From Candidatus Melainabacteria bacterium GWF2_37_15 (lineage in GTDB: Bacteria; Cyanobacteriota; Vampirovibrionia; Gastranaerophilales; UBA9971): DNA of 37,788 bases. Shown here in pieces: positions 28,855 to 29,210 of this stretch. The DNA lies in NCBI GenBank assembly GCA_001784565.1, contig MFRL01000015.1:1-37788 (forward strand). The letters run 5' to 3'. A model generated the notes under the pieces. The model was not told the DNA's origin, searched no databases, and was given only the letters and a program-made list of their open reading frames with translations. Made by a program: the position numbers and the translations under genes. Positions within the stretch are counted from its first letter, which is position 1. Every line of letters begins with the position of its first letter.

Positions 28855-28875
28855 ACCCTGAAACAAGTTCAGGGT
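28855..28875. repeat. CCCTGAAACAAGTTCAGGG palindrome
   Basis: CCCTGAA (28856-28862) and TTCAGGG (28868-28874) flank ACAAG, with a further A-T pair outside and GACGC following. It is a sequence relative, in opposite orientation, of the repeat at 28314-28341. Confidence 0.7.
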
Positions 28876-28914
28876 GACGCTTGGGATCAAAAGTGACAAC
28901 TTTGACAACCCCAC

Positions 28915-28942
28915 TTTAAAATCCCAAAACTAATGTTATAAT
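28915..28942 (+). promoter_or_regulatory. extended -10 promoter of a short antisense RNA
   Basis: TTTAAA (28915-28920), a 16-base spacer and a perfect TATAAT (28937-28942) preceded by TG at 28934-28935, giving TGTTATAAT. Transcription should start near 28949, just opposite the 3' end of the small peptide mRNA. Confidence 0.6.
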
Positions 28943-28945
28943 AAT

Positions 28946-28990
28946 AAAAAGGGCGAGGATGCCCCGCCAGGACATCCTCTTTAAAAGCCC
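28946..28990 (-). terminator. terminator of the small hydrophobic peptide mRNA
   Basis: On the minus strand GGGC...GAGGATG pairs with CATCCTC...GCCC (28951-28990), with a seven-base bulge between the two left arms, and is followed by TTTTT (28950-28946). It lies just after the stop codon of the 37-residue frame. Confidence 0.65.
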
Positions 28991-29036
28991 ATTTTTAATG
29001 AAGTAAAAGACTTAGTATTTCTACTAGGTCTTTTTT
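28949..29036 (+). ncRNA. candidate antisense RNA (about 88 nt), antitoxin-like
   Basis: This RNA is predicted from an extended -10 promoter at 28937-28942 and an intrinsic terminator at 29005-29036. The terminator stem pairs 29005-29017 with 29022-29034 (one G-U pair, loop TTTC) and ends in six T at 29031-29036. The RNA would be fully complementary to the 3' untranslated region and the last 42 bases of the minus-strand small peptide gene. This matches the layout of txpA/RatA and related type I toxin-antitoxin pairs, where the antisense RNA blocks translation or triggers RNase III decay. Boundaries are approximate and expression is unproven. Confidence 0.55.
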
Positions 29037-29108
29037 GCCATATAGGAGAAGAATTACAATAACGAGTATTAATAATTCCCGCTCGCTAACGGCAAATTTA
29101 ACCTTCAT
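28995..29108 (-). CDS. 37-residue hydrophobic peptide, type I toxin-like
   Basis: A small frame from ATG 29108 to TAA 28995. It begins MKVKFAVSERELLILVIVIL and continues LLLYGKKDLVEILSLLLH. Residues about 12-23 form one strong hydrophobic segment flanked by charges (SERE before, GKKD after), the usual build of membrane-acting type I toxins and of small regulatory membrane peptides. The Shine-Dalgarno is exceptional: AAAGGAGGTGAT, 12 bases complementary to the 16S 3' end. The last third of the gene is overlapped by a predicted antisense RNA, and a terminator follows directly. I do not recognise a specific family (TxpA, Fst and holin-like toxins are similar in size only). The upstream promoter has TATAAA at 29147-29142 but no good -35. 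Confidence 0.7.
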   Translation of the reverse strand: MKVKFAVSERELLILVIVILLLYGKKDLVEILSLLLH

Positions 29109-29113
29109 CCGGC

Positions 29114-29125
29114 ATCACCTCCTTT
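29114..29125 (-). promoter_or_regulatory. 12-base perfect ribosome-binding site
   Basis: AAAGGAGGTGAT on the minus strand, five bases from ATG 29108 (nine from the GGAGG core). It is the strongest ribosome-binding site in the window and decides the start of the small peptide. Confidence 0.8.
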
Positions 29126-29210
29126 CTTCGACTATTCCACGTTTATAGCGTGTCCGAAGGGGAAATGATTCAGGGCTTACCCCATTGTGAAACCAATTTT
29201 AACATGATTG

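Follow-up and report, generated by a model that had tools for sequence, protein, structure and literature searches.

The 37,788-nucleotide stretch of contig MFRL01000015.1 from Candidatus Melainabacteria bacterium GWF2_37_15 that we have analysed (hereafter the window) contains a compact locus in which a gene for a small hydrophobic peptide, on the minus strand, faces a predicted antisense RNA on the plus strand. On comparative grounds, this locus very probably represents a chromosomal, multicopy family of type I toxin-antitoxin systems, most likely one that has not been described before, which would combine a closed mRNA of the hok/AapA kind with an antisense RNA directed at the 3' end as in txpA. 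A first-pass annotation, made from the letters of the window alone, had proposed a type I layout for this locus, and the comparison with related loci strongly supports it: compensating mutations in approximately 130 of them show, at the level of sequence, a shared layout under selection, and the peptide, the leader, the 5'-3' helices, the antisense promoter and the antisense terminator are each established by this comparison. The observation lies above chance because the unit of about 210 nt recurs within the genome, while its elements recur in about 130 relatives with compensatory change. The elements that the first-pass annotation had listed were found where it placed them; it had missed the leader (29114-29183) and the sense promoter, the helices that join the two mRNA ends, and the existence of paralogues and tandem arrays.

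The presumed toxin gene is a minus-strand open reading frame (ORF) at 28995-29108, supported by the ORF list, paralogues and relatives, which encodes the 37-residue peptide MKVKFAVSERELLILVIVILLLYGKKDLVEILSLLLH. As previously annotated, the peptide has a single hydrophobic stretch, with a maximal Kyte-Doolittle value of 2.37 over 15 residues, and belongs to no family that we recognise: scans of Pfam and NCBIfam returned none at cut-off, only a sub-threshold signal for TatA, and six other peptides of the same family have no Pfam match. The gene is preceded by the Shine-Dalgarno (SD) sequence AAAGGAGGTGAT (29114-29125, minus strand), which is complementary to the usual 3' end of 16S rRNA and has its sole exact occurrence within the window here, in line with its earlier description as the strongest of the window. 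Right after the stop codon, again as had been noticed, lies the intrinsic terminator of the toxin mRNA (28946-28979, minus strand), with a stem at 28955-28979 that is the best-ranked terminator-like site of the region in the terminator scan and a U tract at 28946-28950. On the upstream side, the sequence suggests a sense promoter with the extended -10 element TGtTAAAAT (29196-29204, minus strand); several copies have TGTTAAAAT/TATAAT at an equal distance upstream of the leader, and this promoter is less uniform among copies than its antisense counterpart.

The whole 211-nt unit recurs on three other contigs of the same genome with 84-86% identity, in unrelated flanks, the conserved block extending from the GGGG of the leader to the -35 box of the antisense promoter. 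Eight leader copies were found in this genome with a leader covariance model, giving at least eight copies of the unit, and the paralogous peptides are 77-83% identical; the copies on contigs C45, C18 and C76 encode small hydrophobic peptides too, that of C76 starting with TTG. Beyond this genome, the peptide profile A2 has matches at E values of at most 0.1 in 115 of 383 genomes of the order Gastranaerophilales, many of the weak ones being doubtful and some corresponding to TatA, while the leader covariance model R1, applied at E of at most 0.01 with strict filters, detected the element in 52 of 286 genomes. With R2, matches were obtained in 48 of 289 genomes at the level of the class and in 44 of 292 at that of the phylum; every one comes from Gastranaerophilales save one in a distant cyanobacterium (G549, E 0.006), which on inspection had none of the anatomy and is considered a chance match. 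We parsed 135 unique loci, of which five were misparsed and dropped, leaving 130; these fall into the taxonomic family of the window (f1) and two other families of the order, f2 and f3, the latter being the sister of f1, with loci assigned to f1 or f2 by peptide length.

The 130 loci encode peptides of 19-43 residues with one hydrophobic stretch each, and the best 15-residue hydropathy is at least 1.8 in every one. The peptides of f1 and f3 carry a charged tail (KKDLVEILS, KNELAKILTR); those of f2 stop after the span (MVVNTEELAIILLILLVLTTK, MDFSITEKALVLILLIILALKSK). A GG[AG]GG motif is present in all 130 loci, the SD being a requirement of the parsing, and the exact sequence GGAGGTGAT in 73. 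Tandem arrays are common, for instance in G011:C44, G057:C34, G101:C20 and G118:C8, and copy number differs between genomes. Loci L259 and L267 retain a conserved leader with a broken ORF and are probable decaying copies, whereas the divergent L264 (G143:C1:59516-59588) has a weak leader match and a 32-residue peptide with a Cys-containing middle (MIIELMLILFILQQCKYKELALMIITVLVLFQ); its ORF still has the inverted repeat GAACTAGCACTA / CAGTGCTAGTTTT, and it may be a separate branch.

Could the peptide be a relic of TatA, or a mini-TatA, of the twin-arginine translocase? Its segment ELLILVIVILLLYGKK resembles the start of the transmembrane-hinge region of TatA, with 15.2 bits (E 0.012) against Pfam TatA_B_E and an E value of 0.0099 against NCBIfam tatAE. 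However, 15.2 bits lies below the cut-off of 21 bits, the six other family members have no TatA match, and neither TatA nor TatC gave a match in the window genome, which is 92% complete, while a relative has a true TatA (L006), encoded by a gene of its own, which reaches 60 bits. We have rejected this origin, with a sub-threshold profile, no match in other members and no TatC partner, and give it hardly any probability. TatA-like proteins are found in other genomes of the order (L006 in G024:C3, L014 in G046:C8 and L023 in G019:C28), and the lineage of the window possibly has lost the Tat pathway or is affected by assembly gaps.

The toxin mRNA begins with a structured 5' leader of about 70 nt (29114-29183, minus strand), recognised with R1 and by covariation. 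In the consensus of the leaders, an anti-SD segment, ATCATTTCC (29161-29169), is paired with the SD core (29114-29122), followed inwards by the stems CTTCG (29155-29159)/CGAAG (29126-29130) and CACG (29149-29152)/CGTG (29138-29141) and by an apical loop of 7 nt, CTATAAA (29142-29148). R1 was trained on f2 only, that is on loci with short peptides, without the locus of the window and with a hand-set structure, given that MAFFT alone did not align the stems; it found the leader of the window at 32.5 bits. In an alignment of 68 leaders, 10 of the 15 pairs have changes on both sides, with 126 both-side cells against 32 after shuffling and 13-33 with slid partners, counts which have to be read knowing that fitting the alignment to the model favours covariation, whereas two probable false matches among the leaders work against it. 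Since a hairpin in DNA may serve either strand, and G-U wobbles tell which RNA has been selected, we have used the polarity of wobbles as a strand test: in the leader, 104 positions are G-U in the sense RNA only, against 14 in the antisense RNA only. The SD of the window is unpaired with a probability of 0.003, rising to 0.42 once the 5' 30 nt are removed; the mean values are 0.10 in f1, 0.03 in f3 and 0.18 in f2, as compared with 0.31, 0.23 and 0.27, respectively, for shuffled leaders.

The two ends of the mRNA also appear to be joined. For the window mRNA (28950-29186) the folding energy is -87 kcal/mol, with a z score of -5.71, although its single-sequence minimum free energy structure has the apical stem in a register unlike the family consensus, and 121 of the 130 loci, each in its own fold, have at least 5 pairs joining the 5' and 3' ends. 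In the window, GGGGT at the 5' end (29179-29183) pairs with GCCCT (28950-28954), which overlaps the terminator region, and AAGCCC (29173-29178) pairs with GGGCTT in the 3' untranslated region (28985-28990), all on the minus strand and all seen in both the fold and the relatives. Elsewhere in the family these helices vary in a compensatory fashion: GGGT/GCCC becomes GAGGAC/GTCCTC and AAGCCC/GGGCTT becomes AATCCTT/AAGGATT, with AAGTCTCC/GGGGACTT, GGAATCCTT/AAGGATTCT and AACCCTT/AGGGGTT as further variants. Both arms are very alike within groups, as seen when 5' and 3' segments are swapped free of alignment. With its SD buried and its ends paired, the full-length mRNA is expected to yield little or no peptide.

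The opposite strand carries a sigma70-type promoter at a fixed place directly behind the toxin terminator, beyond which the flanks diverge. The first-pass annotation had pointed to the extended -10 element TGTTATAAT at 28934-28942 on the plus strand; it is present, with TG at 28934-28935, TATAAT at 28937-28942 and a -35 box, TTTAAA (28915-28920), 16 nt upstream, while the motif TGnTATAAT taken by itself is not above chance (2 occurrences in the window versus 3.2 expected). The argument for this promoter comes from the relatives: a -35/-10 pair, TTTAAA-N16-TGnTATAAT or near, is found in 13 of 14 f1 loci; in f2 the pair is present in essentially all loci, mostly as TTGAAA-N16/17 and with exact TATAAT in 97 of 107, the mean score being 11.1 versus 8.5 for both the neighbouring sequence and shuffled controls; all 9 of the 9 f3 loci have it as well, with the weaker TAAAAT. 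The predicted antisense RNA, of about 88 nt (28949-29036, plus strand), would start at about 28949, which is the 3' end of the toxin mRNA, and end within the ORF, with some 78 nt left before the SD, and would not be directed at the translation-initiation region; a 91-nt segment folds with a z score of -4.93.

The antisense terminator lies within the toxin ORF (29005-29036, plus strand), as earlier annotated, and consists of a stem (29005-29017/29022-29034) that ends in six T, with a U tract at 29031-29036, even if the simple terminator scan of the region did not pick it up. To evaluate this hairpin against coding needs, the peptide was kept fixed and codons were drawn from the family's own usage, with 60 controls per locus. 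Measured on the antisense strand, the mean z scores are -2.8 in f1, -3.6 in f2 and -3.1 in f3; the window locus has -2.38, with 0 of 60 controls matching it, and in 118 of the 130 loci at most one of 60 synonymous controls matches the native hairpin. The sequence of the stem varies while pairing is kept (GACTTAGTA, GAGTTAGTA, GGGTTAGCA), to the point that L271 and L117 have stems wholly different in sequence. Covariation of this hairpin, which had been suggested as a check, gives 75 both-side cells in f2 against 26 shuffled and at most 12 slid, and 12 in f1/f3 against 4.1 shuffled and 0-1 slid. For f1/f3 the hairpin probably acts on the antisense strand, with 18 G-U wobbles that are antisense-strand-only versus 1 sense-only, and tails of at least 5 U are more frequent on the antisense than on the sense side in all groups (71% vs 43% in f1, 51% vs 5% in f2, 89% vs 33% in f3). 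The joint constraint on peptide codons and antisense fold, which the first-pass annotation had surmised, is visible in these sequences as a hairpin exceeding coding need and maintained by compensatory changes, and homologues that keep the peptide while lacking the antisense promoter and terminator are not the rule.

Independent evidence on the strand comes from outside the order: hairpins 88-94% identical to the 33-nt hairpin of the window occur in a Priestia plasmid and in phages of Clostridioides and Enterococcus, and in the Enterococcus phages a near-identical hairpin immediately follows a gene, oriented as a terminator of that gene would be. Carriage of the locus by phages or plasmids was considered and rejected, for a BLAST search with 276 nt gave short matches only, the best of which was to this same antisense terminator hairpin.

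How, then, would such a system operate? In a type I toxin-antitoxin system of this kind, a minus-strand toxin transcript of about 240 nt would extend from approximately 29187 to 28946 and, once finished, close upon itself through the two 5'-3' helices, while the leader hairpin would hide a near-perfect SD; judging from these conserved structures, the full-length form would be translated poorly or not at all. The promoter on the opposite strand would start the antisense RNA of about 88 nt at the 3' end of the toxin mRNA, to stop inside the ORF. Its pairing would cover the 3' untranslated region of the toxin and the last third of the ORF, producing, by analogy with txpA/RatA and aapA/IsoA, a substrate for RNase III, an enzyme encoded in the window genome, and would remove, by the same analogy, mRNA that has been opened after end trimming. 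Were the supply of antisense RNA to stop, the opened mRNA would be translated and a single-span peptide of 19-43 residues would enter the inner membrane, which it may damage or depolarise as analogous toxins do.

Several points weigh against this reading. In silico truncation of the 3' end leaves the SD buried (0.003), and activation of the mRNA by 3' trimming alone is not predicted by the folding model; given that removal of the 3' untranslated region does not free the SD, the mRNA may be opened by processing at its 5' end, by unwinding of the RNA or by some factor that acts on the leader. The antisense promoters of f3 are weak, with scores of 8.5-10 against a shuffle mean of 8.5. In f2, the wobble polarity of the ORF hairpin favours the antisense strand by 29:8 for the outer nine pairs and becomes 29:35 with the tenth, and the antisense U tracts are often short or interrupted, at least 5 U being present in about half.

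A different function for the same RNA architecture has also to be considered. The peptide might be a small membrane protein that is no toxin but, say, regulates a stress response or modulates a membrane complex, and that is kept at a low dose by SD burial and antisense RNA. All the evidence at the RNA level fits this explanation equally well, and the close paralogues are well conserved, with the 77-83% identity given above; however, across the family sequence and length drift (19-43 residues) while hydrophobicity is kept, and tandem arrays with patchy gain and loss belong typically to toxin-antitoxin loci rather than to a fixed subunit. We regard this explanation as rather unlikely. Much less probable still is an origin as a small selfish repeat, interspersed through copying by a mobile element, in which ORF and hairpins would be incidental. 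Its copies are multiple, intergenic, tandem and patchy, and the closest relative is empty beside metW, as such an element might be; yet we noticed neither a transposase nor a target duplication next to the copies that were inspected, and the copies, although diverged, have retained through compensatory changes their frame, their leader pairing and both the promoter and the terminator of the antisense RNA, features that functionless copying would not maintain. A toxin-antitoxin locus may itself be selfish, so the two explanations are not fully exclusive.

The genomic surroundings of the locus, in a genome of 2.27 Mb, are ordinary: Pfam and NCBIfam scans identified a TM2-domain protein, metW, argH and a radical SAM protein as neighbours. 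A leader or attenuator of metW was considered and rejected. The nearest relative, a metagenome-assembled genome of Candidatus Gastranaerophilales, has a MetW 83% identical, which places the genome of the window on the Melainabacteria/Vampirovibrionia side of the cyanobacterial phylum, but no element after metW; in 51 loci, almost exclusively from Gastranaerophilales, R2 detects no copy close to metW. Close to the locus (28857-28876, minus strand) lies a palindromic repeat, CACCCTGAACTTGTTTCAGG, that is interspersed in the genome with 28 copies at up to 2 mismatches (13 exact), against 0 copies of its reversed control; remnants similar to it occur near copies of the element in L116 and L145.

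In comparison with known systems, Rfam has no family at cut-off for the elements of the window locus. The pairs txpA/RatA and bsrG/SR4 of Bacillus subtilis have a small hydrophobic peptide, a convergent cis antisense RNA overlapping the 3' ends and SD sequestration (PMC6562991). The window family shares these three features but has no peptide or RNA family match to them, and differs also in its two covarying 5'-3' helices and in peptides down to 19 residues. Closure of the full-length mRNA by a 5'-3' interaction, with a sequestered SD, is known for the multicopy aapA/IsoA and hok systems (PMC6733600). Closed mRNA, in 121 of 130 loci, and multiple copies are in common with aapA/IsoA of Helicobacter and hok/Sok, whereas in the window the antisense RNA is directed at the 3' end and stops within the ORF, the anti-SD sits just upstream of the SD in a leader hairpin, and the peptides have no similarity at the profile level; unlike aapA, removal of the 3' untranslated region in silico leaves the SD buried. 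Within Cyanobacteria proper, MsoT1/MsoA1 of Microcystis has a toxin of 63 residues with two predicted membrane helices (PMC12390103). It belongs to the same broad phylum and has an antisense RNA against the 3' part of the coding sequence and the 3' untranslated region, but the window family has one span, 19-43 residues and is found only in Gastranaerophilales. MsoT1/MsoA1 is the sole type I precedent that we found in the literature for the cyanobacterial phylum, and we found there no link of type I systems to Melainabacteria, Gastranaerophilales or Vampirovibrionia. In E. coli, the Ibs peptides are hydrophobic and about 19 residues long, from tandem multicopy loci in which the Sib RNA spans the whole ibs gene. 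The likeness to our family, judged from descriptions, is in the very short hydrophobic peptides and the tandem copies; we know of no closed mRNA of the present 5'-3' kind for Ibs/Sib.

The apical loop of the leader is C-U-N-N-A-A-A in 133 of the 135 loci, with 12 different NN dinucleotides on a stem that covaries. U33 with A36-A37-A38 is the pattern of tRNAs for UNN codons. A36-A37-A38 is also the recognition sequence of MiaA-type enzymes, the tRNA isopentenyl transferases (PMC7200024), and MiaA is encoded in the window genome. A speculative proposal, to which we assign a small probability, is that the leader mimics a tRNA anticodon arm and is acted upon by a tRNA-modifying or anticodon-cleaving enzyme, so that toxin release would sense the state of tRNA modification or an attack on anticodon loops, for example by phages or rival nucleases. 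The CUNNAAA loop may also be only a rigid U-turn loop.

In broader terms, the family extends across Gastranaerophilales, an order that is hardly known outside metagenomic data, and its approximately 130 unique loci allow every RNA element to be traced by covariation. Because the antisense terminator sits in codons, these loci constitute a natural alignment for the joint optimisation of toxin mRNA, antisense RNA and peptide code, and the anticodon-like loop adds to it a specific, testable oddity.
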